In this document: positions 2,154 to 61,424 of the stretch, in pieces
Position numbering within the stretch: position 1 is the stretch's first letter
Layout of the letters: each line of letters starts with the position of its first letter
NCBI RefSeq assembly: GCF_000355805.1
Contig: NZ_CM001837.1
Span: forward strand, 75,434 to 139,433
Length of the DNA: 64,000 bases
Origin: Dokdonia sp. PRO95
GTDB lineage: Bacteria; Bacteroidota; Bacteroidia; Flavobacteriales; Flavobacteriaceae
Reading direction: 5' to 3'
Notes under the pieces: generated by a model
Seen by the model: the letters and a program-made list of their open reading frames with translations, nothing else
What the model was told of the DNA's origin: nothing
The model's database searches: none
Program-made: the position numbers and the translations under genes

Positions 2154-2184
2154 TTGAGTGCGCTTTCGCGAAAGCGTATATTTG
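2154..2184 (+). promoter_or_regulatory. truA promoter with the palindrome as its spacer
   Basis: -33 TTG (2154-2156) and -7 TATATTTG (2177-2184) are 20 bases apart. The 16-bp palindrome at 2161-2176 fills the spacer and directly abuts the -7 element. Transcription would start near 2189, so the GTG at 2203 is the likely truA start. Confidence 0.65.
2161..2176. repeat. 16-bp palindrome CGCTTTCGCGAAAGCG, copy 1 (exact)
   Basis: Exact copy in the divergent intergenic region between the phosphoesterase gene and truA, between the -33 and -7 elements of truA. Confidence 0.98.
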
Positions 2185-2187
2185 CCA

Positions 2188-2195
2188 CAAAAATA
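2188..2195 (-). promoter_or_regulatory. -7 element for the phosphoesterase gene
   Basis: TATTTTTG on the minus strand, fitting TAnnTTTG. It sits 34 bases upstream of the ATG at 2153 and only 3 bases from the -7 element of truA on the other strand. No matching -33 TTG is evident. The transcript leader would contain the palindrome. Confidence 0.5.
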
Positions 2196-2202
2196 CAACA
2201 CA

Positions 2203-2976
2203 GTGCGTTACTTTATCGAGCTTTCTTACTTTGGAAAACACTACCACGGCTGGCAGCGACAACCTGACGCTGTGACGGTACAAGAAACGATAGAAAAATC
2301 ACTCTCTACAATCTTGCGAAAACCCGTCCAAATTATGGGAGCAGGACGCACTGACGCCGGTGTACATGCTACACAAATGTATGCGCACTTTGACTGGAAT
2401 GATGACCAGTTTTCTACTCAGGAAGGCATAGATCATCTTACCCATAAGTTCAACCGATTTTTGCCAAAAGATATCGCATTTAAACGCATTTTTGAAGTGG
2501 CAGATAAAGCACATACTCGCTTTGATGCTACGAGTAGATCTTATGTGTATCGCATAGGGAAACATAAAAACCCTTTTACGTCAGATTATGCACCTACGCT
2601 ACGCTATGACGTAGATCTTGATGCCATGAACAATGCTGCGGCAATACTCCTGGACTATAAGGATTTTGAGTGCTTTTCTAAATCAAATACTGACGTTAAC
2701 ACCTATCTTTGTGATATTACTCGTGCAGAGTGGATAGAGACAGAAGATGAGTACCACTTTCATATCACTGCAAATAGATTTTTACGCAATATGGTACGAG
2801 CCATTGTAGGAACATTATTAGAGATAGGAGAAGGAAAAAGAGACGTTGCATGGATGCACGAGGTAATCACTGGCAAAAGTAGATCACAAGCAGGAAAATC
2901 TGTTCCTGGACGTGGTTTATATTTGACAGAGATTTTATACCCAGAAACAATTTATAAAGATCATGGCAGAGACTAA
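2203..2976 (+). CDS. truA: tRNA pseudouridine(38-40) synthase TruA
   Basis: 257 residues from the GTG at 2203. The motif GAGRTDAGVHA contains the catalytic Asp; FLRNMVRAIVG and the C-terminal GRGLYLTEI are also typical of TruA, which converts U38-U40 of the tRNA anticodon stem to pseudouridine. The frame is open to a GTG at 2158, but those codons come from the palindrome and lie upstream of the likely transcription start. The downstream ABC gene begins 14 bases inside truA, so the two are translationally coupled. Confidence 0.93.
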   Translation: MRYFIELSYFGKHYHGWQRQPDAVTVQETIEKSLSTILRKPVQIMGAGRTDAGVHATQMYAHFDWNDDQFSTQEGIDHLTHKFNRFLPKDIAFKRIFEVADKAHTRFDATSRSYVYRIGKHKNPFTSDYAPTLRYDVDLDAMNNAAAILLDYKDFECFSKSNTDVNTYLCDITRAEWIETEDEYHFHITANRFLRNMVRAIVGTLLEIGEGKRDVAWMHEVITGKSRSQAGKSVPGRGLYLTEILYPETIYKDHGRD

Positions 2977-4729: not shown

Positions 4730-4753
4730 TTCTCAATGTTATTCTGTTGAGCA

Positions 4754-4769
4754 CATTTTCGCGAAAGCG
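4754..4769. repeat. Decayed palindrome copy (2 mismatches)
   Basis: CATTTTCGCGAAAGCG matches the 16-mer except at positions 2 and 3. It lies in the 56-base gap between the converging ABC exporter and adenylate cyclase genes. Confidence 0.8.
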
Positions 4770-4785
4770 CAATCATGCTTAGATC

Positions 4786-5904: not shown

Positions 5905-5997
5905 ATATTACTTTATGCTGGGTCTAGTAAAGTACCAAATAAAGGCTCACAATCACCACTCGTTTAAGAGATTTTTATGAGAACAATATTGTTGTTA

Positions 5998-6013
5998 CGC
6001 TTTCGCGAAAGCG
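5998..6013. repeat. 16-bp palindrome, copy 2 (exact)
   Basis: Exact copy, extended by matching flanks to a 20-bp palindrome (5996-6015). It lies between the adenylate cyclase start and the stop codon of the DUF3667 gene at 6019. Confidence 0.98.
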
Positions 6014-8909: not shown

Positions 8910-9032
8910 CTACTTTGATTTTGCGGTCTTTACTTTCGGCTTACTTCTAGACTGCGACTCTAACGCTTGCTGATATTTAAGAATTTTAAAAGATAAATTT
9001 ATTGAGTCACGCTTTCGCGAAAGCGTACTCAT
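8910..9032 (-). CDS. Possible 40-residue basic small protein (uncertain)
   Basis: An open frame from ATG at 9032 to TAG at 8910 fills most of the gap between cdaA and the thioredoxin-like gene. It starts MSTLSRKRD, where LSRKR is the palindrome read in its third frame, and ends in a Lys/Ser-rich tail (SRSKPKVKTAKSK). It could be a small basic protein or a chance frame. There is no recognisable homologue or clear ribosome site. The stop codon of the neighbouring thioredoxin-like gene lies close upstream. Low confidence. Confidence 0.25.
   Translation of the reverse strand: MSTLSRKRDSINLSFKILKYQQALESQSRSKPKVKTAKSK
9010..9025. repeat. 16-bp palindrome, copy 3 (exact)
   Basis: Exact copy between the thioredoxin-like gene and cdaA. 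If the small frame at 8910-9032 is real, the copy encodes LSRKR in it. Confidence 0.98.
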
Positions 9033-11847: not shown

Positions 11848-11863
11848 CGCTTTCGCGAAAGCG
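11848..11863. repeat. 16-bp palindrome, copy 4 (exact)
   Basis: Exact copy, 20 bp with matching flanks. It lies just past the T-run of the terminator at 11866-11901 and upstream of htpG. Confidence 0.98.
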
Positions 11864-15471: not shown

Positions 15472-16244
15472 TACCATTCCCCTTTAAAGACAAAGGTTGC
15501 AGGACCTATTAAGTAGATATTAGAATACCCATCATTAGTTTTCTCAAACTGTACAGACAGTTTCCCACCTTGTACATCTAGCGCTACTTTATTGCTAGTG
15601 GTTAAGCCATTTGTATGTGCTGCGATTGCAACAGCTGTTACTCCTGTCCCACAGCTCAACGTTTCATCCTCTACTCCACGCTCATAGGTGCGCACTGCAA
15701 AATGAGCATTATCTAATTGCTGTACAAAGTTTATATTACTTCCCGCTTCACCATATAAACTACCGTAACGCAATGCTGCTCCTTCAGCTTTTACGTTTAC
15801 TTTTTCTACATCATCTACCATTGCAATATGATGTGGAGAGCCTGTGTCAAGAAATGTGTAAGCAGCTTCTTTCTTAATTTGAGATACATCCTGCATCTTC
15901 AGCTGCACGATATCACCTTCTATGCTTGCCTCGTGTAAACCATCTATCGCTTCAAAGGTTGCCTTGTTTTCGATGATAGATAACGCTTTCGCGAAAGCTA
16001 CCAAGCAGCGTCCACCATTACCACACATGCTACTTTCATTACCATCTGCATTATAGTACACCATTCTAAAATCTGCCGAAGGATGATTTTCTAACAGCAT
16101 TAATCCATCTGCTCCTATGCCAAACTTTCTGTCACAGAGCTTTGAGATGAGTTTGGTATCATCTTTGGGAAAGTATTGAGTACGGTTATCTATGATTACA
16201 AAATCATTACCAGTACCTTGATATTTTGAAAATGGGATTGTCAT
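15471..16244 (-). CDS. dapF: Diaminopimelate epimerase
   Basis: 257 residues. Interconverts LL- and meso-diaminopimelate, the peptidoglycan cross-linking residue and lysine precursor. Both catalytic cysteines are visible: C74 in SSMCGNGGRC and C198 in LSCGTGVTA. A one-mismatch palindrome copy encodes AFAKA at residues 83-87, just after the first active-site loop, in a helix that tolerates it. First gene of dapF-GNAT-mltG, with a -7 element at 16264-16271. Confidence 0.96.
   Translation of the reverse strand: MTIPFSKYQGTGNDFVIIDNRTQYFPKDDTKLISKLCDRKFGIGADGLMLLENHPSADFRMVYYNADGNESSMCGNGGRCLVAFAKALSIIENKATFEAIDGLHEASIEGDIVQLKMQDVSQIKKEAAYTFLDTGSPHHIAMVDDVEKVNVKAEGAALRYGSLYGEAGSNINFVQQLDNAHFAVRTYERGVEDETLSCGTGVTAVAIAAHTNGLTTSNKVALDVQGGKLSVQFEKTNDGYSNIYLIGPATFVFKGEW
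15984..15999. repeat. Palindrome copy 5 (1 mismatch), inside dapF
   Basis: CGCTTTCGCGAAAGCT; only the last base differs. Read as AFAKA in dapF. Confidence 0.95.
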
Positions 16245-19414: not shown

Positions 19415-19430
19415 CGCTTTCGCGAAAGCG
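19415..19430. repeat. 16-bp palindrome, copy 6 (exact)
   Basis: Exact copy 21 bases after the GAPDH stop and before its terminator, so it is part of the 3' untranslated mRNA. Confidence 0.98.
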
Positions 19431-21485: not shown

Positions 21486-21501
21486 CGCTTTCGCGAAAGC
21501 G
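21486..21501. repeat. 16-bp palindrome, copy 7 (exact)
   Basis: Exact copy, 20 bp with flanks (21484-21503), directly after the trmD stop and before prfB. Confidence 0.98.
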
Positions 21502-23878: not shown

Positions 23879-23894
23879 CGCTTTCGCGAAAGCT
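23879..23894. repeat. Palindrome copy 8 (1 mismatch)
   Basis: CGCTTTCGCGAAAGCT, last base changed. It lies in the predicted 5' leader of the lrp mRNA. Confidence 0.95.
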
Positions 23895-27479: not shown

Positions 27480-27486
27480 GTTTTTA

Positions 27487-27502
27487 CGCTTTCGCGAAAG
27501 CG
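27487..27502. repeat. 16-bp palindrome, copy 9 (exact)
   Basis: Exact copy that extends to a 22-bp perfect palindrome (27484-27505), TTA...TAA at its ends; between the GspG-like gene and the peroxiredoxin. Confidence 0.98.
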
Positions 27503-27604
27503 TAACCACATCACAATACGCACTTAAAACTTAATCATAAGCAAAACCAATACTACTATAAAATTATCCCATTTTACAGTATAATATGACGTTACTTTTC
27601 TAAG

Positions 27605-30182: not shown

Positions 30183-32630
30183 ATGGCAAAAAAGAAATCC
30201 ACGGCTAAAAAAACAAATACTAAGACTCCTAGAAAATCTATCTCCTTTAAATTGACGCGCCAGCAGCAAATCATTTTAGGATGCTTTTTATTCTTACTCG
30301 GTCTTGGCTTGCTGTTCTCTTTTATCTCATACTTATTTACCTGGAAGGTAGATCAAAGTCTTATTGCTACAGGAACGAGAGAGGACGAAGCTTCAAACTG
30401 GCTATCACTGGTGGGTGCACGCATAAGCCATTTCTTTATCTATAAAGGTTTTGGTGTTCCTGCGCTCGCACTTTGCATCCTTACTTCGCTCACTGGAGTA
30501 CATTACATTTTTGATTATGCAAAGACTTCATTAAAAAGATTTTGGTTTTGGGGAATACTGCTTATGCTTTGGCTAGCTGTATTTCTTGGATTCTTCCATA
30601 AAAAGAATGATATCCTTGGCGGTACCGTTGGTTACGAAATCAATGACTTCCTACAAGATTATTTAGGTCTAACCGGAGCAATCATTGTGATGGCTTTTCT
30701 AGCTATTGTCTACCTAGTTGTACGTTTAAAACTTACACCAGAGCGCATATCTACGTTTATCAATAAACAACGTAGCGACCTCGCTGGTGAGTTTTCAGAT
30801 GATGAAAAGGATCCTGTTATTGTAGATAACTCCTCTACTTACGAAGCCGAAGAGTTTTTAAAAGGAACTAAGGTTGAGGATGAGACCGCTTTCGCGAAAG
30901 CGGAAACCGCAACACCTCCTAAGCCATCTGCTTTTGAACAAAACGTTCAAGATTTACAACCTACACTCACCAAAAAAGAACCTGAACCTACCAGCACTTT
31001 CCAAGTAACGGAAGCTCCAGAGGAAGAAGTTATTGAAGTAGAAGAAGTAGCTGTAGAGGTTGAAAAACCTATTGAAGAGGAAGAACTTACAGATAACTTA
31101 AGCTCAAAACTAGTTGCAGATTTTGGCGAATTTGACCCTACGCTAGAACTTGGCAAGTTTAAATTCCCTCCTATTGATCTATTAAAAGATTATACAAACG
31201 GACAAGGAATCACGATTAATCAAGAAGAGCTTGAAGAAAATAAAAATCGTATTGTTGAGACGCTTAACAATTATAAAATAGGAATCTCAAACATAAAAGC
31301 TACCGTAGGTCCTACGGTGACATTATACGAGATTGTACCTGAGGCTGGGGTTCGTATTTCAAAAATTAAAAATTTAGAAGACGATATTGCATTATCACTT
31401 AGCGCACTAGGTATACGTATTATTGCTCCTATTCCTGGGCGCGGTACGATAGGTATTGAGGTACCTAATAAGAATCCTCGTATTGTGAGTATGCGTTCTG
31501 CAGTGGCTAGTAAGAAATTCCAAGAAGCAGAGATGGAGCTACCGCTTACACTAGGTAAAACCATATCAAATGAAACATTTGTGGTAGACCTTGCCAAGAT
31601 GCCTCACCTCCTTATGGCAGGTGCTACGGGACAAGGTAAATCTGTTGGTCTTAATGCAATTCTAACTTCGCTACTTTACAAAAAACATCCAGCCGAAGTC
31701 AAGTTTGTATTAGTAGATCCTAAAAAAGTGGAGCTTACTTTATTTAATAAAATAGAGCGTCACTACCTAGCAAAACTACCTGATACAGATGAGGCGATTA
31801 TCACAGATAATTCTAAGGTGATCAATACGCTTAACTCTATGTGTATAGAGATGGATGCTAGATATGACCTTCTTAAAGATGCAATGTGCCGTAATATTAA
31901 AGAGTACAATGCAAAGTTTAAAGCTCGCAAGCTTAATCCAGAAAATGGTCACAAATTCTTACCATACATTGTACTCGTGGTAGACGAGTTTGCAGATCTT
32001 ATCATGACTTCTGGAAAGGAAGTAGAGACTCCTATTGCAAGGCTTGCACAGCTCGCACGTGCGATAGGTATACACTTAATCATTGCAACACAGCGTCCAT
32101 CTGTAAATGTGATTACTGGTATTATTAAAGCTAACTTCCCAGCTCGTATTGCCTTTAGAGTAACTTCAAAAATAGATAGCCGCACCATACTTGACACCTC
32201 TGGAGCAGACCAGCTTATAGGTCGTGGTGACATGTTGTACACACAAGGTAACGACGTGGTACGTATACAGTGTGCCTTTGTTGACACCCCAGAAGTAGAG
32301 CGTATTGTAGAATATATAGGTAATCAAAAAGCATATCCAGACGCTCATTTATTGCCAGAATACGTAGGTGAAGAGAGTGGCACAAGTCTTGATATAGATG
32401 CTTCAGATAGGGATGCTCTCTTTCGCGATGCTGCCGAAGTTTTGGTAATAGCTCAGCAAGGAAGTGCTTCTCTATTACAACGTAAACTTAAACTAGGATA
32501 TAATAGAGCTGGAAGAATCATAGATCAACTAGAAGCTGCAGGTGTGGTAGGTCCTTTTGAAGGAAGTAAAGCACGTCAAGTTCTAGTTCAAGATATGGCT
32601 GGACTAGATCAACTCCTAAATAATGAATAA
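30183..32630 (+). CDS. ftsK: DNA translocase FtsK/SpoIIIE
   Basis: 815 residues from ATG at 30183 (MAKKKSTAKK). Four membrane helices (about 20-180), an acidic flexible linker (about 200-330), then the RecA-like motor: Walker A GATGQGKSV near 478, Walker B YIVLVVDEFADL near 600, and a C-terminal winged-helix gamma domain (SASLLQRKLKLGYNRAGRIIDQLE) that reads KOPS-type polar motifs. It pumps chromosome termini at the division septum. A palindrome copy encodes AFAKA in the linker near 236. Confidence 0.95.
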   Translation: MAKKKSTAKKTNTKTPRKSISFKLTRQQQIILGCFLFLLGLGLLFSFISYLFTWKVDQSLIATGTREDEASNWLSLVGARISHFFIYKGFGVPALALCILTSLTGVHYIFDYAKTSLKRFWFWGILLMLWLAVFLGFFHKKNDILGGTVGYEINDFLQDYLGLTGAIIVMAFLAIVYLVVRLKLTPERISTFINKQRSDLAGEFSDDEKDPVIVDNSSTYEAEEFLKGTKVEDETAFAKAETATPPKPSAFEQNVQDLQPTLTKKEPEPTSTFQVTEAPEEEVIEVEEVAVEVEKPIEEEELTDNLSSKLVADFGEFDPTLELGKFKFPPIDLLKDYTNGQGITINQEELEENKNRIVETLNNYKIGISNIKATVGPTVTLYEIVPEAGVRISKIKNLEDDIALSLSALGIRIIAPIPGRGTIGIEVPNKNPRIVSMRSAVASKKFQEAEMELPLTLGKTISNETFVVDLAKMPHLLMAGATGQGKSVGLNAILTSLLYKKHPAEVKFVLVDPKKVELTLFNKIERHYLAKLPDTDEAIITDNSKVINTLNSMCIEMDARYDLLKDAMCRNIKEYNAKFKARKLNPENGHKFLPYIVLVVDEFADLIMTSGKEVETPIARLAQLARAIGIHLIIATQRPSVNVITGIIKANFPARIAFRVTSKIDSRTILDTSGADQLIGRGDMLYTQGNDVVRIQCAFVDTPEVERIVEYIGNQKAYPDAHLLPEYVGEESGTSLDIDASDRDALFRDAAEVLVIAQQGSASLLQRKLKLGYNRAGRIIDQLEAAGVVGPFEGSKARQVLVQDMAGLDQLLNNE
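30887..30902. repeat. 16-bp palindrome, copy 10 (exact), inside ftsK
   Basis: Exact copy read as TAFAKAE in the unstructured FtsK linker. Confidence 0.98.
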
Positions 32631-36949: not shown

Positions 36950-36961
36950 GAGGTACAATTA

Positions 36962-36977
36962 CGCTTTCGCGAAAGCG
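36962..36977. repeat. 16-bp palindrome, copy 12 (exact)
   Basis: Exact copy extending to a 22-bp perfect palindrome (36959-36980). It sits just past the T-run of the SRP RNA terminator and 9 bases after the T-run of the terminator on the other strand. Confidence 0.98.
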
Positions 36978-36980
36978 TAA

Positions 36981-38399: not shown

Positions 38400-39146
38400 A
38401 TGAAAAAGCCTATCGCCATTACAATTCCAAAGCCATGTCATGAAGACTGGACTGCAATGACTCCTACAGAGCAAGGAAAACACTGTGCTGTATGTAGTAA
38501 AGAGGTCGTTGATTTCACATCGCAAACTACAACACAACTACGGGACCGTATAGTAAATGGAGATTCGATTTGTGGTCGTTTTAGAAAAGATCAGCTGGAT
38601 ACTCCCATCTATGCAGCGCGTGATAAAGGCAGGAGCTTTACTCAAGCGGCAGCGGCACTACTAGTCCCTATGGCAATGCTTTCGGTTGCAGAGGCATCTG
38701 GACAGACCACAACTGAGACAATAATTATGGGTGATATTGCACCCGTTGAATTACCTATTAATGCGTATGATAGTTTAGGAATTAGTTCGCTTTCGCGAAA
38801 GCATAAAACTCCGAAAAAATTAATAACAATAACAGGTAAAGTGACCGACATGACTGGCCCATTACCTGGAGTGAACATAACCGTCCATGGAACTTCAAGA
38901 GCTTACCAAACTGATTTTGAAGGAAATTATAGTCTCAAAGTGTTTCCCGGAGAAACGATTAAGTATAGTTTCTTAGGTTACGAACCGCGTACAATACTCA
39001 TAGACTCACAACTTGAAATAAACGTGAATTTTAAAGATGACGATCAAAACATGCTTTTAGGAGAAGTTATCATACTTGATTACAAACAAATTAAGAAAGA
39101 AGAGAGAAGAGAAAAAAGGCGTCTCAAGAAAGAAAAAGGACACTAA
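38400..39146 (+). CDS. Membrane protein with Cys-rich N-terminus and CarboxypepD-regulatory-like domain
   Basis: 248 residues. Cytoplasmic N-terminus with paired cysteines (IPKPCHEDWTAMTPTEQGKHC, AVCSKEVVDF, and SICGRF), one membrane helix (about 82-100), a linker, then a beta-sandwich CarboxypepD_reg-like domain (ITGKVTDMTGPLPGVNITV, TDFEGNYSLKV) and a Lys/Glu-rich tail. The palindrome encodes LSRKH in the linker. The N-terminal family is common in flavobacteria. Likely binds metal at the Cys/His cluster; function unknown. Confidence 0.75.
   Translation: MKKPIAITIPKPCHEDWTAMTPTEQGKHCAVCSKEVVDFTSQTTTQLRDRIVNGDSICGRFRKDQLDTPIYAARDKGRSFTQAAAALLVPMAMLSVAEASGQTTTETIIMGDIAPVELPINAYDSLGISSLSRKHKTPKKLITITGKVTDMTGPLPGVNITVHGTSRAYQTDFEGNYSLKVFPGETIKYSFLGYEPRTILIDSQLEINVNFKDDDQNMLLGEVIILDYKQIKKEERREKRRLKKEKGH
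38788..38803. repeat. Palindrome copy 13 (1 mismatch), in the linker of the gene above
   Basis: CGCTTTCGCGAAAGCA, last base changed. Read as LSRKH, the only core copy in a gene read in that frame. Confidence 0.95.
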
Positions 39147-40752: not shown

Positions 40753-43230
40753 TTACAAACTCAACCCTATCAAAAACGCACCATCATTACCACCTCTTGC
40801 TCCTTGACCATACACGTAGTCAAAACGCAATAACCTATATTTACCCCACCCTACATTACCTATTCCTACGTTGAATTCTCTATAAAACGAGCTTTCGTTA
40901 GTACTTAAAACGTGTGCACCTGCAATAAGATTGAAGTTCAGTTTATTTACGAGCGGAATTTTGCCTAATATCCATCCCTTAAAATTGTGTTCAATGTGCC
41001 CTTCTACATACCCTTGATTTGTACTACGTTCATAGTAAGGTAACACACCAAATCTATTGAGTCTCGATGGTTCTAGAAGTATCGAGCGATTACCATTAAA
41101 ATGCTGTCTATCTATAAAACTAACGTCTTTTGCAGTTCCTAAAAAGGTGCCAGCGCGTAAGTCATAAGACATTCTTCCTTTATTACTTATATTAAATTCC
41201 TGTTCCACAATAAGACGGAATTGATCAAAATTATAATCTGAAACGGAAGCTCCGAAGCCCTTTTCATATACCAACGTAAGTGATGGATACTTTTCTGATG
41301 TTACATTAAATTTTCCGTTAGGATAACTGTAGTACTTCTGACCAAAATTTGCCGTAGCACTTAGGAGTAACTTTCCTAAAGAGTGCGCTTTAAAAACTCC
41401 ATTCTCAGTATCCAATGGATTAAGCGGATTGTTACTTGTATACTCACGATCATCGTTCGGGAAGAATGTTTGATCTGTAGTATTAAAAACAGGATTACGC
41501 TGTTCGTAAGCAATAATTCCGTTGAGCTGTAAGCCATTGACTATCTCTTGTCCATAGTAGAGTTGCGCAAATTCCTTTTCGTAGTACTTGGCAAAATTTT
41601 CTTCCCTAAGGAGTGAGTATGCTGTATTTAAAATGGGAGATATTGGATTTGCATTATTTACTTGTAAAATATCAACTCCCCCCGTGACGCTTAAAGTAGC
41701 TCTATTGCTACGATTGAAACGTCTAGTAAATCCTAATGTATAACGCAAACGATCTTCTGAGAATCCATAGTTCGCTTTCGCGAAAGCGGAAAGAGATTTA
41801 CTATAATCTTCATCACTCCAACTAGAATAAGTCGCTTGCATGGTTCCATTCCAACCTTGAACGGTATTAAATTGAATATTATTAATAGGTGGCGTGATTC
41901 CAAATCGCCATTTATTATAAGTATCTGTATAAGAATATCCAAAAATGGGCGAAGTAATCTTAAATCGATTGCCTCGGTCATCTATAGAATCTAGGTACTT
42001 CTTTGATTTTCTTATAACCTGTATGCTATCTTTCTTGATATAATCATTTATTTCAAGTGACGTTAAAGGCACGGGACGACTGCGCTCCCAGAATACACTA
42101 TCTTTTTTATTTGCCTGGTCTGCAAAGGACAAAATCTCTGCCGAAAAAGAATCCTTCGTAAACTGAGGGGCAAACTCATAATCAGAATAAGCTGCTGTAA
42201 ATCTACCATCACCTTTAAGTCCTAGAAAGCCAAAGCTAAAATCTATGACTTGTGAGATTTTCACCCACTGGCTAAGAGATTCCTCATATTTAAAATTCTG
42301 CTTAAAGTTTAGATTTTCTATAAATGGAAATTGAATCGCATTTCCATCTGTTTGCAAGTCGACTCCATAAAGTTGCCATGAGTCTTCTACAATGTATATG
42401 GTTCCAGAAAAAACTCGGTCATTTTCTCTGCGTGGCGTTACCGTTATTTTATTGATGAGTTGGTTATTTTCATAAAATGTCCCTTCAAGATTATATTTGT
42501 AATAAGAAAATGCATTAGTGGCGATAGGCGAAATTATCTGCGCGTTGAGATCTAAGGTGTTTTCATAAAAAGAAAAATTTGCTTCACTCGCAGTATTAAA
42601 GCTAAAGCCATTATCATCACCACTCACTTTACTTGCTACAATCACCTCGCTAAAATTATCCGGGCGTTGATATTTGATGTTCGATATGGTCTCACTTAAA
42701 TAAAAAACTCCCGTACGAGTAGAATCTAGTCCGCCTCCCAAATCTCCTACCTCTTGCCCTAAAATTTTATCTGGTGCATCTTTTACCTTCCACAATCCTC
42801 TTGAGTAAAAGGAAGCTGTGTACGCGCCTATGTTTTGTAAATTCTTTTCTCTTAAAGATATTGCTCCCTGTATAATCCGGTCTGCGGGATTTACACCAGC
42901 TTGCACGATTACCTCATCAAGGGATGTAGAAGATTCTTCCATTACAACAGAAACTGTCATTTCTGCAGAATTTACTCTTACTTGTTTTACAACAGTAGCG
43001 TACCCAAGAAATTGAAAGGTTACATTTAATGTTTCTCCTTGATCTTCTGCTAGTAATTCCAGAGCGTATTGCCCATCGCCATTAGTCGTGGTACCACGAT
43101 TAGTATCTTCTATAAACACATTTACGAAAGGAAGTGCCTCACTTTCTTTGTTTACTACGGTGCCTGTAATCTGGGCAGTGGTTGCAAAAGAAAAAAGCAG
43201 TATTATAACTAAGGAAAAATATGTGCGCAT
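40753..43230 (-). CDS. DUF5686 outer-membrane protein with CarboxypepD-like N-terminus
   Basis: 825 residues. Signal peptide (MRTYFSLVIILLFSFATTAQ), CarboxypepD_reg-like domain (about 20-105, ITGTVVNKESEALPFVNVFI, NGDGQYALE), then the large DUF5686 region ending in alternating strands and GAFLIGLSL, consistent with an outer-membrane beta-barrel. Found throughout Bacteroidota near envelope genes; function not established. One exact palindrome copy encodes AFAKA at about residue 482. The stop is 4 bases from that of the converging beta-helix gene. Confidence 0.85.
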   Translation of the reverse strand: MRTYFSLVIILLFSFATTAQITGTVVNKESEALPFVNVFIEDTNRGTTTNGDGQYALELLAEDQGETLNVTFQFLGYATVVKQVRVNSAEMTVSVVMEESSTSLDEVIVQAGVNPADRIIQGAISLREKNLQNIGAYTASFYSRGLWKVKDAPDKILGQEVGDLGGGLDSTRTGVFYLSETISNIKYQRPDNFSEVIVASKVSGDDNGFSFNTASEANFSFYENTLDLNAQIISPIATNAFSYYKYNLEGTFYENNQLINKITVTPRRENDRVFSGTIYIVEDSWQLYGVDLQTDGNAIQFPFIENLNFKQNFKYEESLSQWVKISQVIDFSFGFLGLKGDGRFTAAYSDYEFAPQFTKDSFSAEILSFADQANKKDSVFWERSRPVPLTSLEINDYIKKDSIQVIRKSKKYLDSIDDRGNRFKITSPIFGYSYTDTYNKWRFGITPPINNIQFNTVQGWNGTMQATYSSWSDEDYSKSLSAFAKANYGFSEDRLRYTLGFTRRFNRSNRATLSVTGGVDILQVNNANPISPILNTAYSLLREENFAKYYEKEFAQLYYGQEIVNGLQLNGIIAYEQRNPVFNTTDQTFFPNDDREYTSNNPLNPLDTENGVFKAHSLGKLLLSATANFGQKYYSYPNGKFNVTSEKYPSLTLVYEKGFGASVSDYNFDQFRLIVEQEFNISNKGRMSYDLRAGTFLGTAKDVSFIDRQHFNGNRSILLEPSRLNRFGVLPYYERSTNQGYVEGHIEHNFKGWILGKIPLVNKLNFNLIAGAHVLSTNESSFYREFNVGIGNVGWGKYRLLRFDYVYGQGARGGNDGAFLIGLSL
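41773..41788. repeat. 16-bp palindrome, copy 14 (exact), inside the DUF5686 gene
   Basis: Exact copy read as SAFAKAN. Confidence 0.98.
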
Positions 43231-44709: not shown

Positions 44710-45462
44710 ATGTTTCGATCGCTTTCGGCTATTATCATAGTACTATTTATTACGAGCTGTTCTCAAAAAACACCTACTGCACAAGAGATTGTAGATAAGG
44801 CCATAGCAGCTTCTGGAGGTGCTCAAATTGAACATGCTAGTATTCATTTCAAATTTAGAGATTTCTACTACAGAGCCACTCGCAATAAAGGTTTACGCAC
44901 CTTAGAGCGTTGTACGGATGCCGAATGCCAAGTACAACAAGACGTTATAAAAGATGATGGTGAATTTGTACGCTTTCGCGAAAGCGCACCTATCCCAGTA
45001 GCAGATAGCATGAAAAATCGTTATGCAAATAGTGTAAACTCTGTTCATTACTTTTCTGTGCTTCCATACGGATTAAATGATCCAGCTGTAAGAAAAAAAC
45101 TAGTGGATGAAGTCACTGTGAAAGGGGAATCTTACTACCGCATTATGGTCACATTTGCACAAGAAGGTGGTGGTGATGATTTTCAAGATGAATACATGTA
45201 CTGGATTAACAAAGAAAATTACCATGTAAATTACCTCGCTTATAATTATCAAACTTCTGAAGGTGGTACGCGTTTTAGAGAAGCTTACAATGAGCGCATC
45301 ATAGAAGGAATACGCTTTGTAGATTATCGCAATTACAAGCCAGAAGAGCAATTTCCCGCACTCACAACCCTGGATAATATGTTTGAAAATAAAAAGCTCA
45401 ATCTCTTAAGTAAGATTGAGCTCGAAAATATCACTGTAACTATCTGTCCTGATAATTGCTAG
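44710..45462 (+). CDS. DUF6503-family lipoprotein
   Basis: 250 residues. Lipoprotein signal MFRSLSAIIIVLFITSC, then TAQEIVDKAIAASGG typical of DUF6503, a LolA/LolB-like beta-rich family of Bacteroidota; VTVKGESYYRIMVTFAQEGGG and DEYMYWINKENYHVNYLAYNYQTSEGG are also conserved-looking. Predicted to bind a lipid-like ligand at the envelope, by analogy only. An exact palindrome copy encodes VRFRES near residue 88, the only core copy in this third frame. Tail-to-tail overlap of 4 bases with the next gene. Confidence 0.82.
   Translation: MFRSLSAIIIVLFITSCSQKTPTAQEIVDKAIAASGGAQIEHASIHFKFRDFYYRATRNKGLRTLERCTDAECQVQQDVIKDDGEFVRFRESAPIPVADSMKNRYANSVNSVHYFSVLPYGLNDPAVRKKLVDEVTVKGESYYRIMVTFAQEGGGDDFQDEYMYWINKENYHVNYLAYNYQTSEGGTRFREAYNERIIEGIRFVDYRNYKPEEQFPALTTLDNMFENKKLNLLSKIELENITVTICPDNC
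44971..44986. repeat. 16-bp palindrome, copy 15 (exact), inside the DUF6503-like gene
   Basis: Exact copy read as RFRES. Confidence 0.98.
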
Positions 45463-48529: not shown

Positions 48530-49318
48530 CTAGCTGTTCCATATTGACCATGAGGCTTCTGCTTGCAATTCTAGCATGCGCAAACCATTAATTATTGTTG
48601 CTCCTTGCTCTCTTGCATATCTTAAAAAAGCAGACTCTGCTGGGTTATAAATCAAGTCAAAAGCCACGTGCGTTTCATTTAAATACAGATATGGAATATC
48701 TGGAGCCTCTTCTACATCTGGATACGTCCCTAGCGGAGTGGTATTCACTATAAATGTCTGACTCTCGATAAGTTCCCTATCTAAATCTTCGTACGTTATT
48801 GTTGATTCTTTACGCTTTCGCGAAACAAAAACACATTGCACACCAAGCTGTTTCATTGCATAGTGTACCGCTTTTGATGCACCACCAGTTCCTAAAATAA
48901 GGCATTTTAAGTCTCTACTTACATAATCTGCAGTGCCAAATCCTACAAAAAGAGAATCTACGAAATGTTCTAATAATGTATCTCTAAAACCGATAAAGTC
49001 AGTATTGTATCCCGTTAAGCTTCCATCGCTTTCAACTTTTATGGTATTTACAGCGCCAATGGCTTCGGCATCTGTATTTAGATTATCTACTAGTGGTATT
49101 ACATCTTGTTTGTATGGGATGGTTACGTTATATCCTTTCGCGTAAGCGGGAGAAAAAAGATCTTTTAAGGCCTCTTTTTCTGGGACATCAAAATTCACAT
49201 ATGTTGCAGCTATCTCGAGCTTCTCAAATTTGTTTTTAAAATACCCTCTAGAAAATGAGTATCCTATATCTTTTCCTATGAGTCCGTATTTATCCACGAG
49301 CTTTTGTTCTTGTTCCAT
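48530..49318 (-). CDS. aroE: Shikimate 5-dehydrogenase
   Basis: 262 residues. NADP-dependent reduction of 3-dehydroshikimate. Substrate part: YGLIGKDIGYSFSRGYFKNKF, NVTIPYKQDVIPLVD with the catalytic Lys, GAVNTI, YNTDFIG. Cofactor part: LGTGGASKAVHYAM; then NTTPLGTYP. The start lies 29 bases inside the upstream DUF368 gene, so the three genes form a coupled run. Two decayed palindrome copies lie in it (48813, 49133). aroE here links to carrier-lipid genes only by position. Confidence 0.94.
   Translation of the reverse strand: MEQEQKLVDKYGLIGKDIGYSFSRGYFKNKFEKLEIAATYVNFDVPEKEALKDLFSPAYAKGYNVTIPYKQDVIPLVDNLNTDAEAIGAVNTIKVESDGSLTGYNTDFIGFRDTLLEHFVDSLFVGFGTADYVSRDLKCLILGTGGASKAVHYAMKQLGVQCVFVSRKRKESTITYEDLDRELIESQTFIVNTTPLGTYPDVEEAPDIPYLYLNETHVAFDLIYNPAESAFLRYAREQGATIINGLRMLELQAEASWSIWNS
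48813..48828. repeat. Decayed palindrome copy in aroE (3 mismatches)
   Basis: CGCTTTCGCGAAACAA keeps the first 13 bases; read SRKR-K. Confidence 0.7.
49133..49148. repeat. Decayed palindrome copy in aroE (3 mismatches)
   Basis: TCCTTTCGCGTAAGCG, read AYAKG, close to the AFAKA coding pattern. Confidence 0.55.
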
Positions 49319-54956: not shown

Positions 54957-57494
54957 ATGAAATATAGAATTCTAGTTGTAAGTTTTTTAGTACTCGCTTT
55001 CGCGAAAGCGTTATCACCTCAACTACACGCACAAGAGTACTTTACAGGAAAGTACGCACCTTTTGACGTTGCAATCCCTTCTCCAGCACAATTTCTAGGT
55101 TATGAGATTGGTGAACAACATACACGTCACGATCAAATAGTATCCTATTTTCAAAAACTAGCCGAATTATCACCGAGAGCAACCTTAAGTGAATACGGAA
55201 GAACTCACGAAAACCGCAAACTTGTGATGCTTACCGTATCGAGCATTAACAATCAAGAGATATTACCTACGCTTAAAAACCAACACCTCGCCTTTGTAGA
55301 CACCAAGCAACGCGCGACCAATTATGATGATATTCCTGTTTTTATACAACTTGGCTATAATGTACATGGCAATGAGCCATCCAGCTCTGAGGCGGCATTG
55401 CTCACGGCATACACGCTCGTGGCATCACAACATCCAGAAATAGAAAAATATAGAGAAAACAGTATCATATTTATAGACCCTACCATAAATCCAGATGGCC
55501 GTGATCGTCACACGCAGTGGGCAAATAGTTATAAAGGCTCACCACTAGTTTCTGATAATATAGATGCAGAGCATACAGAAATGTGGCCACGCGGACGTAC
55601 TAACCACTACTGGTTTGACTTAAACCGTGATTGGCTACTTGCCGTAAATCCAGAAAGCCGCGGAAAATTAGATTGGTATCACGAGTGGTATCCTAATGTA
55701 GTTACAGATTTTCACGAGATGGGTACAAACAGTAGTCACTTTTTCGAGCCTATGCTCCCCATTGGCAGTATGGATCCTATTATGCCTAAAGAAAACTACG
55801 AAGACCTCAACAATCTTTTTGCTCCTTACTTTTCAAGTGCGCTGGATGAGATAGGTAGTTTTTATTTTACAAAGGAATCTTTTGACGGCACCTACCCCGG
55901 TTATGGATCGTCATATCCGGATCTTCAGGGAGCACTAGCACTTCTTTTTGAACAAGCAAGTAGTCGCGGGCATCTTCAGGACACAGATTTCGGAACTATA
56001 AGTTTTCCTTTTACCATTAGAAATCAGTACACCTCCGGGATGGCTACTGTAAAGGCTGCTGTGGAGAATAAAGGTACTTTACGTAAGTACCAGCAAGATT
56101 TTTTTAAGTCCGCTTTCGCGAAAGCAAAAACAGATCAAGCAGCCGCTTATGAATTTGGAGATCCTTATGACGCAAACAGAACAAAAGCTTTTATAGACAA
56201 ACTTCTCAAACATCGCATCAAGTTATATGACAAAGGAGATGGTCGCTATGTAGTCCCTACGCAACAAGCGCAAAAAAGAATGGTGCAGTCCTTCTTTGAA
56301 ACCTATAAGAAATACAGAGACAGTGTTTACTATGATGCAAGCGCTTGGTCTGTGGGTAATTTTTACAATATGCGTTACAAAGGATTGTCTAGCACACCGA
56401 ACTTGGGTAACGAAGTTACGTCTACAGATGAGCTCACTAAGGTTCAAATGGTAATAAAAACAGATTATGCATACCTCATCGATTATGATGATTATAATGC
56501 GCCTGCTTTGCTTGCTTATTTACAGCGTGAAGGTCTGACGATGGCGACGGCGTTCAAACCTTTTACTGCAAAAACAACGAGCGGTAATCATGATTTCAAC
56601 TACGGAACACTAATGCTGCCTGTAAGTCGTCAAGAAAAAACTCCAGAAGAAGTGTATCGTATTATTACATCTGGACAACAGAAATTCCAAGTGCCAATCT
56701 ATGCGGCAAATACCGGTTTTAGCATCAAAGGAATTGACTTAGGAAGTCAGAATTTCCGAAAAGTGGATACTCCAAAAGCGCTTATGATTATAGGAGATGG
56801 GACAAGCTCGTACGAAGCTGGCGAAATATGGCATTTACTTGATACGCGTGTACATATGCCTATTACAAAAGTGATGAGCAACAACCTTAACAGAGTAGAT
56901 TTGAGCAAATACAACACTGTAGTAATGGTTTCTGGAAGCTATGGAAATTTATCTAAGCGATTTCAAGAAAATCTCACTTCATGGGTTTCACAAGGAAACA
57001 CCTTAATTACTTCTGGAACTGCAAGTAGCTGGGCTATCAAATCAAAAATAGCCTCTGGAACGCTCACAAAAGAAAACAAGAAAGACTCTACAAAAACTAT
57101 GGAGCGCGAGCCTTATGTGAATCAAAGACCTAATCGAGGAAAAGAGCGCCTAGGTGGAGCTATTTTTGAGGTAGACTTAGATCTTACCCACCCACTAGCT
57201 TTTGGATACAGGTATGACAAGCTGCCTGTATATAAAAATAATAATGTCTGGTTGCAGCCTAGTAAAAATGAGTATAACACTGTTGCTCAATATTCGGCGG
57301 CGCCACATATAGATGGTTATATTTCTGAGAAGAATCTCAACACCTTTATGAAAAAGAGTGCATCTCTTGTGGTCTCTCGTAAAGGACGAGGACGCGTCGT
57401 GATGTTTGCAGATAACCCTAACTTTAGAGGAAGTTGGTATGGAACTAACAAACTATTTTTAAACGCAATCTTTTTCGGAAGTTTGATTAATTAA
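54957..57494 (+). CDS. M14 family zinc carboxypeptidase, exported
   Basis: 845 residues. Signal peptide MKYRILVVSFLVLAFAKA with the palindrome forming AFAKA, then M14 domain (about 40-370): H137-x2-E140 in NVHGNEPSSSEA binds zinc, TDFHEMGTNSSHF holds the third His, and LLFEQASSRG the catalytic Glu. A long C-terminal part (about 380-845) is of the type seen in secreted flavobacterial M14 enzymes. A second palindrome copy encodes AFAKA near 387. Expected to trim peptides outside the cell. Confidence 0.9.
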   Translation: MKYRILVVSFLVLAFAKALSPQLHAQEYFTGKYAPFDVAIPSPAQFLGYEIGEQHTRHDQIVSYFQKLAELSPRATLSEYGRTHENRKLVMLTVSSINNQEILPTLKNQHLAFVDTKQRATNYDDIPVFIQLGYNVHGNEPSSSEAALLTAYTLVASQHPEIEKYRENSIIFIDPTINPDGRDRHTQWANSYKGSPLVSDNIDAEHTEMWPRGRTNHYWFDLNRDWLLAVNPESRGKLDWYHEWYPNVVTDFHEMGTNSSHFFEPMLPIGSMDPIMPKENYEDLNNLFAPYFSSALDEIGSFYFTKESFDGTYPGYGSSYPDLQGALALLFEQASSRGHLQDTDFGTISFPFTIRNQYTSGMATVKAAVENKGTLRKYQQDFFKSAFAKAKTDQAAAYEFGDPYDANRTKAFIDKLLKHRIKLYDKGDGRYVVPTQQAQKRMVQSFFETYKKYRDSVYYDASAWSVGNFYNMRYKGLSSTPNLGNEVTSTDELTKVQMVIKTDYAYLIDYDDYNAPALLAYLQREGLTMATAFKPFTAKTTSGNHDFNYGTLMLPVSRQEKTPEEVYRIITSGQQKFQVPIYAANTGFSIKGIDLGSQNFRKVDTPKALMIIGDGTSSYEAGEIWHLLDTRVHMPITKVMSNNLNRVDLSKYNTVVMVSGSYGNLSKRFQENLTSWVSQGNTLITSGTASSWAIKSKIASGTLTKENKKDSTKTMEREPYVNQRPNRGKERLGGAIFEVDLDLTHPLAFGYRYDKLPVYKNNNVWLQPSKNEYNTVAQYSAAPHIDGYISEKNLNTFMKKSASLVVSRKGRGRVVMFADNPNFRGSWYGTNKLFLNAIFFGSLIN
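54995..55010. repeat. 16-bp palindrome, copy 16 (exact), in the M14 signal peptide
   Basis: Exact copy encoding AFAKA inside the signal peptide. Confidence 0.98.
56111..56126. repeat. Palindrome copy 17 (1 mismatch), inside the M14 gene
   Basis: CGCTTTCGCGAAAGCA; read SAFAKAK. Second copy in the same gene, 1.1 kb from the first. Confidence 0.95.
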
Positions 57495-57531: not shown

Positions 57532-57547
57532 TGCTTTCGCGCAAGCG
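57532..57547. repeat. Decayed palindrome (2 mismatches)
   Basis: TGCTTTCGCGCAAGCG, 37 bases after the M14 stop. Confidence 0.75.
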
Positions 57548-57639: not shown

Positions 57640-57647
57640 TAAATTTG
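57640..57647 (+). promoter_or_regulatory. -7 element of the 28-residue protein gene
   Basis: TAAATTTG fits TAnnTTTG; the start is predicted near 57652 with a leader of about 28 bases. Confidence 0.5.
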
Positions 57648-57679
57648 CATCTATAGATTATAACTAACATTATCCCAAG

Positions 57680-57766: not shown

Positions 57767-57794
57767 GAACTTAAAATAACTACCTAATTAAAAT

Positions 57795-57832
57795 AAAAAA
57801 GCCCAATACTCTTTCGAGTATTGGGCTTTTTT
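57795..57832. terminator. Strong bidirectional terminator
   Basis: Stem AAAAAAGCCCAATACT with AGTATTGGGCTTTTTT (57795-57810 with 57817-57832), CTTTCG loop. Serves the 28-residue gene and, on the minus strand, ettA. Confidence 0.9.
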
Positions 57833-57850
57833 GTTGCTAGCTGTGAGTAC

Positions 57851-59545: not shown

Positions 59546-59601
59546 AATTTGGCTTTTGGCTCTAAGCTGTATGCTTTAAGCTAGTTGTTTTATTGTTAGT
59601 A

Positions 59602-59617
59602 CGCTTTCGCGAAAGCG
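59602..59617. repeat. 16-bp palindrome, copy 18 (exact)
   Basis: Exact copy in the predicted ettA leader, 56 bases before the start. Confidence 0.98.
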
Positions 59618-59661
59618 CACTAGGTATCATATCCTTTGTTGTAAAATAGGATTTTACGATG

Positions 59662-59669
59662 CAAAGGTA
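59662..59669 (-). promoter_or_regulatory. -7 element for ettA
   Basis: TACCTTTG on the minus strand fits TAnnTTTG; leader of about 110 bases. No well-spaced -33 TTG. Confidence 0.45.
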
Positions 59670-59682
59670 ATTAGTTACTCAA

Positions 59683-60099
59683 TCATCCCTTAGTATTAAT
59701 TGGAATATTATGCTGTGTTAATTGTGTGAGCATTTCTGGGATATCTGCAGGCTCTAAGAATAAGTTCTTTATTTTCTTATTCTTCAACCTTAAAATCAGA
59801 GATCTATGTCCTGTAAAGGCTGTTTTATCTTGAACGTAAGCAATTTCTGAAAGGCTAATCTCTTTCTGCCATGAAACGCGAAAAATACTTGAAACACTCA
59901 ATATTAAAAGTACGCCACCTAAAGACCCTGTTATAATAGTAAGTATATCAACATCAGTATTATTGAAACGTTTGTAAGCATATATTAAAAGAAATAACGA
60001 AGTAGATAAAGTACTAAAGAGCAATAATTCATCCATGCGCTTATCATTAATTGATATGCTTTCCTCTGTGAGCTTTATATTTTCTAATGTATTTGCCAT
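59683..60099 (-). CDS. Small two-helix membrane protein of unknown function
   Basis: 138 residues. Two membrane helices (about 25-45 and 52-72) and a beta-rich cytosolic end (VSWQKEISLSEIAYVQDKTAFTGHRSLILRLKNKK) that looks like a small bacterial PH-type domain, similar in style to the gene at 52998. Located between ettA and pabB on the same strand, 20 bases after the pabB stop, so co-transcribed with pabB. No catalytic residues seen. Confidence 0.65.
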   Translation of the reverse strand: MANTLENIKLTEESISINDKRMDELLLFSTLSTSLFLLIYAYKRFNNTDVDILTIITGSLGGVLLILSVSSIFRVSWQKEISLSEIAYVQDKTAFTGHRSLILRLKNKKIKNLFLEPADIPEMLTQLTQHNIPINTKG

Positions 60100-60119
60100 A
60101 AGTAGTTTAAAGCACTAAT

Positions 60120-61424
60120 TTACAAATCTCCTTCTAAAACTGCACGCATCGCTTTTGCTTTAAGCAAGCATTCTTCATACTCACTATCTGGGTCTGAGCC
60201 AGCAGTGATGGCTCCACCTACGGAGTATGAGATATATTCATTTTCTGCATTGTATAAAATACTACGTATTACGACATTAAAATCAAAATCGCCATCTGGC
60301 GTAAAGTAACCTACAGCGCCGCTATACAAGCCACGTTTTGACTCCTCTAGTGACTCAATAATTTGCATTGCTCGTAACTTTGGAGCTCCGGTCATGCTTC
60401 CCATTGGGAAGGTACTACGTATCACGTCTACCGGTGAGATCCCTAATCCTAGTTCTGAAGTTACGGTAGAGATCATTTGGTGCACCTGCTTAAATGGGTA
60501 TACCTCACACAACTCCTCTACTACAACAGATCCTCTGCGGGCTGTGCGAGACAAGTCATTGCGCACCAGGTCTACAATCATTATGTTTTCTGAGCGTTCC
60601 TTTGAGTTTTGTTGTAACGCTTTCGCGAAAGCGGTATCCTCCTTTTCATCTACCCCACGTTTTGCTGTTCCTTTTATGGGCTGCGTGACAATCTTACTCC
60701 CTATTTTCTTAATATATCGCTCCGGAGATGCCGAAAGTAAGAACTGATCCTCAAGCTTGAGATAGGTGCCAAAAGGTGGCGAACTAATAGCATTAAGGCG
60801 TTTATAGATTTCTAATGGGTTTATAGTTCCCAGCGCATAAAACTCTTGGCACAGATTTGCTTCATAAATATCTCCCCGATAAATATGTTCTAACATGCTG
60901 CGCACTTTTTCCTTGTACGCTTCTTTATGGATCTTAAGTTTTATGGATAATGGCTGTGCTTTAAATTCGATTTCAGAAGACTGAGTTGCCAGTATCTCCT
61001 CGTAATCATCCTCCATCTCATCATCTACCATCCCTAGATATAACATCTCCAGTGTGTCTCCTTTGAGTAAGAACAATTTTTTAGGTTGGAAAAAATGTAG
61101 GTCGGCAAAGTCTAGCTTGTCGCTATTTTTTGAAGTAAGACGCTCTGTATCATTCTTAAGATCATAGCTTAAATAACCAAAAATCCAATCCTTAATTGTA
61201 CTTTGATATTCCTCCAACTGGTCAAAAGCACCTTGATAATCTGTCTTTAAACTAGTAAAAGCGTCTACTGCTAAGATGGCTTCATACTCAGGATAATTCT
61301 GACGTTCATAGCTATTACTATCAAGCCAGATAACCTCTTCATATTGTTGAGACCACGATAATAACTGCTCTTTGAGCGTTGTTATATCACTAATAGAAAT
61401 AATTTTTGAAGTACGATTCATCAC
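60120..61424 (-). CDS. pabB: Aminodeoxychorismate/anthranilate synthase component I
   Basis: 434 residues, chorismate-binding enzyme. Conserved: QPIKGTAKRGVDEKED, ENIMIVDLVRNDLSR, TFPMGSMTGAPKLRAMQIIE, YSGAVGYF and GGAITAGSDPDSEYEECLLKAKAM. In the folate pathway PabB makes 4-amino-4-deoxychorismate with a PabA partner that is not in this window. An exact palindrome copy encodes AFAKA just before the ENIMIVDL block. I prefer pabB over trpE because no trp gene is nearby; the two families are hard to separate. Confidence 0.88.
   Translation of the reverse strand: MMNRTSKIISISDITTLKEQLLSWSQQYEEVIWLDSNSYERQNYPEYEAILAVDAFTSLKTDYQGAFDQLEEYQSTIKDWIFGYLSYDLKNDTERLTSKNSDKLDFADLHFFQPKKLFLLKGDTLEMLYLGMVDDEMEDDYEEILATQSSEIEFKAQPLSIKLKIHKEAYKEKVRSMLEHIYRGDIYEANLCQEFYALGTINPLEIYKRLNAISSPPFGTYLKLEDQFLLSASPERYIKKIGSKIVTQPIKGTAKRGVDEKEDTAFAKALQQNSKERSENIMIVDLVRNDLSRTARRGSVVVEELCEVYPFKQVHQMISTVTSELGLGISPVDVIRSTFPMGSMTGAPKLRAMQIIESLEESKRGLYSGAVGYFTPDGDFDFNVVIRSILYNAENEYISYSVGGAITAGSDPDSEYEECLLKAKAMRAVLEGDL
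60618..60633. repeat. 16-bp palindrome, copy 19 (exact), inside pabB
   Basis: Exact copy read as TAFAKAL. Confidence 0.98.

Follow-up and report, generated by a model that had tools for sequence, protein, structure and literature searches.

The chromosome of Dokdonia sp. PRO95 carries several hundred dispersed copies of a 16-bp palindrome that lies at the centre of a symmetric site of about 50 bp, and we think it rather probable that these sites form an undescribed addressing system of Bacteroidota, found in two genera, self-avoiding at about 3 kb and read by a dimeric protein that flags the cell's own DNA, whether for uptake, for protection or for organising the chromosome. The palindrome is apparently a recognition tag for a protein of the host itself, perhaps one that discriminates kin from foreign DNA. 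No description of the array was found in the literature searched.

Results

Copies in the window and in the genome

The window is the whole stretch of 64,000 nucleotides of the PRO95 chromosome that was analysed. A previous reading of its letters (the sequence-only reading) had listed 15 exact copies of the 16-mer and four with one mismatch, and all of them were found at their coordinates; this list of 19 had missed two copies that keep the core but have one degenerate arm (CATTTTCGCGAAAGCG and CGCTTTCGCGAAACAA). The window thus holds 21 copies with an intact 10-bp core and one broken-core relic (TGCTTTCGCGCAAGCG), as presented in Table 1, and the proposed extension of two copies to 22-bp palindromes (TTA...TAA) is present in the sequence. 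Shuffled sequences gave 0 copies; as had been stated, a given 16-mer is not expected once in the window. In the full genome of 3.3 Mb the exact 16-mer is far above background, with 577 copies against 0 for a reversed control, and there are 794 copies of the 14-mer form and 816 of the 12-mer CTTTCGCGAAAG.

The excess of copies between genes was also borne out, but with 9 rather than 10 of the 19 listed copies, as the one at 2161 overlaps a predicted gene start; when ORFs of at least 90 codons are taken as genes, 10 of the 21 core-keeping copies are intergenic. A 464-kb sample of the genome contained 139 core sites, 136 of which were classified, and 69 of these 136 fell in intergenic sequence, which is 12% of the DNA (p = 5e-28). 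The density between genes is about 8-fold that within genes, and the palindrome is highly iterated in both coding and non-coding DNA, with about half of the sites inside genes.

Table 1. Copies of the palindrome in the window (positions of the window).
Feature	Position	Context
Exact 16-bp palindrome	2161..2176	Start of predicted 272-aa gene
Core copy, one degenerate arm	4754..4769	Convergent intergenic
Exact palindrome	5998..6013	Intergenic
Exact palindrome	9010..9025	Intergenic
Exact palindrome	11848..11863	Intergenic
Palindrome, last base changed	15984..15999	Within 257-aa gene
Exact palindrome	19415..19430	Directly downstream of GAPDH gene; intergenic ignoring ORFs <90 codons
Exact palindrome	21486..21501	In 80-aa ORF; intergenic ignoring ORFs <90 codons
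Palindrome, last base changed	23879..23894	Divergent intergenic; one substitution breaks core in relative G154
Exact palindrome	27487..27502	Intergenic; flanks extend to 22-bp palindrome 27484-27505
Exact palindrome	30887..30902	Within ftsK-like gene (819 aa)
Exact palindrome	32765..32780	Within 239-aa gene
Exact palindrome	36962..36977	Intergenic; flanks extend to 22-bp palindrome 36959-36980
Palindrome, last base changed	38788..38803	Within 248-aa gene
Exact palindrome	41773..41788	Within 825-aa gene (weak N-terminal SusC/RagA outer-membrane match, under curated cut-off)
Exact palindrome	44971..44986	Within 250-aa gene
Core copy, one degenerate arm	48813..48828	Within 262-aa gene
Exact palindrome	54995..55010	Near start of 845-aa gene
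Palindrome, last base changed	56111..56126	Same 845-aa gene as 54995 copy
Broken-core relic	57532..57547	Core intact in relatives G152, G154
Exact palindrome	59602..59617	Intergenic
Exact palindrome	60618..60633	Within 434-aa gene

Structure, spacing and conservation

The element extends over about 50 bp. Its TTTCGCGAAA core is near-invariant and is bordered by GC/C arms and then by 15-nt flanks; on the strand that enters the core these flanks are poor in C but contain much G and T, a bias that reaches 20 nt beyond the core and is alike in coding and intergenic copies. No covariation between left and right flanks was found, one-mismatch forms of the core are almost absent, and no half-sites were seen (206 copies of CGCTTTCGCG against 206 of CGCTTTCGCGAA). 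There is about one site per 3-4 kb; none of 118 gaps was shorter than 500 bp, for 17.2 expected, and the coefficient of variation of the gaps was 0.48 against 0.90. Over 20 stretches spread round the chromosome the density was even (variance/mean 0.36, p = 0.004), with neither clustering at the origin nor depletion at the terminus.

The core is under strong purifying selection: 64 of 66 sites are intact in comparison with a relative of 90.7% identity, against 42.5-47.5% of control 10-mers (p = 2.6e-21). In the flanks, substitutions involving C were fewer near the core (51 of 206, against 99 of 306), but not significantly so (p = 0.07). Copies that differ between relatives do so by point substitutions, and no insertional gain or loss was seen in relatives at 90-91% identity or in the few genes compared with more distant species. 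At orthologous positions sites have nevertheless been gained or lost, although close relatives share most copies; inheritance by common descent with no gain or loss, which would have refuted the sequence-only reading, therefore does not hold. The site at 57532 was probably lost in the PRO95 lineage, since its core is intact in G152 and G154. Because of the array itself, its spacing, the flanks, the conservation of the core and the substitution-only change, the copies are, judging from these sequence comparisons, selected recognition sites. Less firmly supported is that upkeep of the sites would depend on the host, since copies in other genera hold more broken cores: 12 of 69 cores in those loci have one mismatch, against 4 of 117 in PRO95 and 3 of 85 in G152 (p = 3.5e-4). 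The array genome G010 has one-mismatch cores in 3 of 36, plus three with two mismatches, and the islands, whose copies are not independent, do not differ significantly from G010 alone (p = 0.25) but do so from all three array genomes pooled (p = 0.0007). Given this comparison with G010, the contrast in decay is weaker than it first appears.

Distribution across genomes, islands and phages

The motif is abundant in 18 of 18 Dokdonia genomes and in all 23 searched genomes of a second genus, probably Nonlabens; the other Bacteroidota sampled have few copies or none, and several of these few lie on shared islands. A weakly supported single-gene tree did not place the two array genera as sisters. 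Twelve genomes of the Dokdonia genus (at least 99% completeness, 2.9-5.5 Mb) hold 584-937 copies of the 12-mer each, with no significant correlation between count and genome size (r = 0.25, p = 0.43). In 10 kb of recently acquired DNA there was one site for 3.2 expected, no clear deficit. Sites also occur in the structural genes of some phages, and one such contig has an integrase gene; a drive confined to the chromosome does not obviously predict this, which counts against the uptake tag proposed below. When a 36-nt composite was searched against collections of phages and plasmids, a method for which a bare 16-bp match is near or under the detection limit, the hits were two mycobacterial prophages matching over 17 bp (E = 5), and no plasmid. 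In other flavobacterial genera no dispersed motif of this kind was apparent in single loci of about 20 kb, in which sparse motifs could escape (one of the scans omitted loci under 12 kb); an uptake tag would therefore stand alone among Flavobacteriaceae.

Discussion

The sequence-only reading had offered a bound site and a DNA-uptake-like signal as explanations, and each fits the data, but neither is singled out by them. As the likeliest role we tentatively propose, by analogy, that the sites tag self DNA, much as do the uptake sequences USS of Pasteurellaceae and DUS of Neisseriaceae. Each copy would be one double-stranded site, about 50 bp long, recognised by a protein that Dokdonia and the second genus encode, presumably a symmetric (dimeric) one, because both half-sites are always needed. 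Tagged fragments would be favoured by the transformation machinery of Flavobacteriaceae or by a comparable system of DNA exchange, and a tag would be useful only on a fragment without another tag. Such a benefit of lone tags may lead to sites spaced evenly at a few kb wherever genes tolerate them, in excess between genes, without orientation bias and in a number independent of genome size. Passages of an earlier account describe uptake sequences as evenly spaced, inside and between genes, with a non-coding excess and no orientation bias, and the known ones as non-palindromic, with one-mismatch forms that can outnumber the exact form (PMC1939737). Two other sources report that Flavobacteriaceae possess their own natural transformation machinery (PMC8459023) and that Riemerella columbina prefers its own DNA (PMC7965970). 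The palindromic shape and the near absence of core mismatches in Dokdonia speak against an uptake tag. By homology to Riemerella, a DUF5689 protein was the best candidate for a surface receptor. This one candidate competence receptor showed no co-variation with the motif: 53 of 55 genomes encode it, whether or not they have the array, and the two array genera do not group together in its tree. None of the candidates tried (ParB, the DUF5689 protein and two methylase families) could be identified as the recognising protein.

The main rival, somewhat unlikely in our judgement, is that the sites anchor a sequence-specific protein of chromosome organisation or segregation, comparable in role to MatP, Noc or SlmA, which would partition the chromosome into units of roughly 3 kb. 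The palindromic core and the symmetric footprint suggest a cytoplasmic dimer, the very regular spacing and the uniform density round the chromosome agree with such an anchor, as does the presence of sites in phages, including the contig with an integrase gene, and the near absence of core mismatches fits all-or-none binding. However, the number of sites does not clearly rise with genome size, known chromosome organisers have far fewer sites, and site-poor stretches exist: in G149 a gap between 16-mers spans 282420-320876, with one core site in the 20 kb of it examined, and one of ten 20-kb stretches of G150 has 0 sites. Nor is ParB a likely binder, because canonical parS is kept (63 of 63 genomes) and no genus-specific column was found in the DNA-binding region of 24 aligned ParB proteins, 13 of them from array genomes. 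On these two results we also rejected a retuned chromosomal ParB, which had been suggested by the best ParB_N scores (108.4-113.7 bits in the array genera, 113.7-120.5 in 32 other genomes). Some genomes encode a second ParB_N protein; the ParB result covers the chromosomal one.

The even spacing, at about one site per 3-4 kb, and the G+T-rich flanks on the strand entering the core would also suit a symmetric analogue of Chi that shields the cell's own DNA from a host nuclease, untagged foreign DNA being degraded. Two related Nonlabens phages without annotated integrase have 0 TCGCGA in 71 kb while other phages carry sites, but these are only two phages, with about 3.7 TCGCGA expected in each; moreover, Chi sites are short, non-palindromic and strand-biased, and half-sites are absent here, so that we regard protection from a nuclease as improbable. 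Likewise palindromic and highly iterated in and between genes is HIP1, for which a methylase-dependent origin was proposed in a passage by Elhai (PMC4390886). That a solitary DNA methyltransferase makes and keeps the Dokdonia sites, perhaps through methylation-biased mismatch repair, is very unlikely: N6_N4_Mtase (PF01555) exceeded the cut-off in none of 12 genomes of the Dokdonia genus and the C5 methylase (PF00145) in 5 of 12, neither family doing so in 7 of 12. A universal methylase of the C5 or N6/N4 type is thus disfavoured, the profiles having been these two. In addition, TCGCGA, with 184 occurrences for 56 expected, has 139 of them in the motif core and is near the base-composition expectation outside the motif, and a methylase alone leaves the 50-bp footprint unexplained. 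The intergenic excess could also come from transcription terminators, from regulatory sites or from a mini-palindromic mobile element, the last put forward in the sequence-only reading, and an 8-bp hairpin forms when RNA of the palindrome is folded together with the TA flanks; we nevertheless give these readings hardly any credence. Site density ignores gene orientation, with similar values of 1.25 sites/kb in co-directional, 1.06 in convergent and 1.52 in divergent gaps; about half of the sites are genic, and T-runs follow the site on its 3' side less often than in the control (19 of 278 against 1538 of 12600). Intrinsic terminators were rejected on this orientation-independence and T-run deficit, and a mobile element on the substitution-only differences, with no insertion seen among relatives and no flank covariation.

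Few lineages are known whose genomes are filled with a selected sequence tag, and the reason for the even spacing of such tags has long been argued. The Dokdonia array is a very clean case, in marine bacteria with cultured members, where the tag can be read, counted and approached by experiment, and the tag is also present on islands in other genera and in some phages. If the proposed system is real, it would be, to our knowledge, either the first uptake-type sequence that is palindromic and the first from flavobacteria, or the densest array of sequence-specific sites for organising a chromosome.

Comparison with known systems

REP/RAYT elements and MITEs are also short dispersed palindromes, many of them intergenic, but about half of the Dokdonia copies are genic and no insertional gain or loss was seen. 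HIP1 (GCGATCGC) of cyanobacteria is likewise a highly iterated palindrome of coding and non-coding DNA; the Dokdonia site is longer and sparser, has an extended footprint and a strong repulsion between copies, and its Dokdonia hosts do not all share a methylase of the C5 or N6/N4 type. With the parS (ParB) and Noc consensus sequences the site shares a 16-bp palindrome with TTTC/GAAA half-sites; it differs in a central spacer 2 bp shorter, in its coexistence with canonical parS and in its several hundred dispersed copies, against few to tens (Noc-binding sites number up to tens). From the USS of Haemophilus influenzae and the DUS of Neisseria the Dokdonia site, whose uptake role is putative, is set apart by its perfect palindrome, its symmetric flanks over about 50 bp, its almost complete lack of one-mismatch cores and its occurrence in Bacteroidota, whereas it has in common with them at least hundreds of copies, a lineage-restricted over-representation, even spacing, genic and intergenic positions with an intergenic excess, and no orientation bias.

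Distribution of the palindrome

The 15 exact and four one-mismatch copies of the 16-mer that a sequence-only reading had claimed for the window were all recovered at their positions, and none occurred in shuffled sequence. The abundance extends to the full genome, a single contig of 3,305,093 bases with the window at 75434-139433, which holds 577 exact 16-mers, none of the same pattern read backwards, and 794 copies of the 14-mer. By GAPDH protein the closest named loci belong to Dokdonia (93% identity), and the window clusters with two Dokdonia loci in the GAPDH tree. Among 80 named loci from the GAPDH search, only these two and Nonlabens antarcticus carried the 16-mer; since the latter does so, we infer that the second genus rich in copies is Nonlabens.

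With one genome per genus, that of PRO95 included, the exact 16-mer was present in 19 of 149 Flavobacteriaceae genomes, reaching hundreds only in PRO95 and the second-genus genome (495), and 1-12 in each of the other 17. Within Dokdonia all 18 genomes carry it (138-711 copies), as do all 23 searched in the second genus (180-737). The 12-mer occurs 584-937 times in 12 Dokdonia genomes of at least 99% completeness and 2.9 to 5.5 Mb, its number showing no significant correlation with genome size (r = 0.25, p = 0.43), and 297-879 times in 23 second-genus genomes of varying completeness. Across the phylum, 22 of 395 genomes from 171 genera had any 14-mer, with a maximum of 6 apart from PRO95; the second genus was absent from this sample, which may therefore have missed a further genus of this kind.

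Stretches were read from 13 of the 17 low-copy family genomes, and in at least 8 of them the copies sit in the same genes, as judged by ORF lengths and positions. Pfam searches on nine of these ORFs returned an AcrB-type pump, an outer-membrane efflux protein and a heavy-metal P-type ATPase. Because the palindrome lies within these recurrent genes, it may trace transfer from the two copy-rich genera into such islands. Some single copies were located elsewhere, one within a DUF3570 gene.

The 16-mer was also found in 41 viral-contig stretches. On several contigs in the host G+C range the sites fall within genes for portal, terminase or head proteins, spaced a few kb apart, and one contig has a site adjoining an integrase gene; some of the matches in high-G+C viral contigs are probably due to chance. 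TCGCGA does not occur at all in the 71 kb of two Nonlabens phages that lack an annotated integrase, although about 3.7 would be expected in each, and avoidance of CGCG and TCGCGA in them is possible.

Features and repeats noted beside the palindrome
Feature	Locus	Remark
parS pair, about 2 kb apart	G000:C1:1228753-1230675	Homologous places in 62 other genomes; conserved as a pair in the genomes listed
Second ParB_N protein, open frame of about 616 aa	G012:C18:76088	Gene with palindrome copies on either side of it in this contig
Second ParB_N protein	G101:C1:2364602	
Second ParB_N protein	G150, G161, G179, G183, G184	
Islands recurring in several flavobacterial genera	L001, L003-L005, L007, L011, L012, L014, L015, L019	AcrB-type pump and outer-membrane efflux protein, heavy-metal P-type ATPase too where checked; palindrome inside efflux/ATPase genes
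Palindrome TTCTGCAGAA	L096 (Aequorivita)	4 copies in 21 kb, perhaps by chance, perhaps as a further iterated palindrome
CCTTTTCTCGAC-type non-palindromic 12-mers	L084 (Nonlabens antarcticus)	13 copies
GAGTGCGGC-type non-palindromic repeat	L021 (Dokdonia)	5 copies
CGCG in two Nonlabens phages	L212, L213	9-10 each, about 36 expected from base composition

Anatomy, placement and upkeep

In 464 kb of the genome (the window and 20 spread stretches), TTCGCGAA occurred 141 times, TTTCGCGAAA 139, the 14-mer 111 and the 16-mer 72; nearly every TTCGCGAA is therefore part of the element, which has a 10-bp core and a looser outermost C/G. Thirty-four of 43 counted one-mismatch forms of the 16-mer vary at an outer base, and the ten core positions together account for 2. 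From -6 to -20 before the core, C falls to 1-14% per strand, compared with 11-22% at -21 to -60, and T and G are raised there. This bias is found in coding and intergenic copies and on both sides of the core; the flanks show no left-right covariation, which rules out an extended hairpin. Position -4 is mostly A in Dokdonia and mostly C or T in the second genus (33 sites), where T is also strong at -12 and -15.

When every ORF of at least 90 codons is taken as a gene by simple prediction, intergenic DNA makes up 12% of the sequence yet contains 69 of the 136 classified sites (p = 5e-28). Density per kb is 1.25 in co-directional, 1.06 in convergent and 1.52 in divergent gaps, compared with 0.16 in genes, where one frame is preferred (40 of 67), mostly reading A-F-A-K-A. 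Spacing is self-avoiding: none of 118 gaps is below 500 bp (17.2 expected) and two are below 1000 bp (32.4 expected), with a gap CV of 0.48 against 0.90. Density is even around the chromosome (variance/mean 0.36, p = 0.004). A second-genus genome has no gap below 1000 bp in 180 kb (5.4 expected), and the close relatives G152 and G154 agree, apart from a single 201-bp gap in G152.

Over 207,683 bases aligned with G152 at 90.7% identity, 64 of 66 sites are intact, compared with 42.5% (coding) and 47.5% (intergenic) of control 10-mers of the same G+C (p = 2.6e-21); an earlier comparison gave 25 of 26 with G152 and 20 of 21 with G154. Four additional sites occur only in G152, and all six differences are single core substitutions, so the suggestion of a mini-palindromic mobile element is not borne out. 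Orthologous loci in more distant species did reveal gain or loss, with 15 sites shared, 11 only in the relative and 3 only in PRO95, non-independent rows being counted. Beyond about 6 nt the flanks diverge from G152 at the normal rate; composition, not sequence, is thus held there. One core mismatch was found in 12 of 69 near-complete copies in other genera, in stretches picked for exact copies and hence underestimating decay, compared with 4 of 117 in PRO95 and 3 of 85 in G152 (p = 3.5e-4); one further copy in other genera has two. In G010, another copy-rich genome, 3 of 36 have one core mismatch and 3 have two. The island copies differ from three pooled copy-rich genomes (p = 0.0007) but not significantly from G010 alone (p = 0.25), so host-dependent upkeep of the sites is supported, not proved.

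Discussion

Together these results add up to a family of recognition sites under selection that are read symmetrically and whose benefit drops when another site is near. No description of the element was found in the accessible text of the open PubMed Central literature on Dokdonia/Nonlabens palindromes, iterated palindromes and uptake sequences; the 16-mer itself had no match in that literature, and the 10-mer none on the subject by title. Terminators are ruled out, as there is no orientation preference and T-runs after the site are rarer than in the control. So is parS, the canonical form being kept in all 63 Flavobacteriaceae genomes tested, with only two, in some three, sites each; among 24 aligned ParB proteins no column separated the two copy-rich genera. 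The second ParB_N gene recurs in several genomes in an open frame of about 616 aa; lying among palindrome copies in G012, it perhaps belongs to the same mobile element.

Sites bound by a chromosome-organising protein would fit the symmetry and regularity better than uptake-type tagging does, and the lack of correlation between copy number and genome size less well; we consider this rather unlikely. That the sites protect against a nuclease seems improbable, and a link to a methylase very improbable: a C5 or N6/N4 methylase common to all hosts does not explain them, neither family being universal (PF01555 over the cut-off in 0 of 12 Dokdonia and 11 of 19 second-genus genomes, PF00145 in 5 of 12 and 11 of 19).

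We tentatively propose that the element might serve uptake-type self tagging, because uptake sequences are the known sequences with the same profile. The sole receptor candidate tested, DUF5689, does not follow the motif, which counts against this proposal. Flavobacteriaceae would be credible hosts for such a system, since Riemerella is described as having transformation machinery of its own (PMC8459023), and R. columbina as preferring its own DNA (PMC7965970). Uptake sequences are reported to be evenly spaced and to lie in and between genes with a non-coding excess and without orientation bias (PMC1939737). Compared with them, the palindromic form and the scarce core variants of the element count against the likeness, and its even spacing, its presence in and between genes, its intergenic excess and its lack of orientation bias speak for it.
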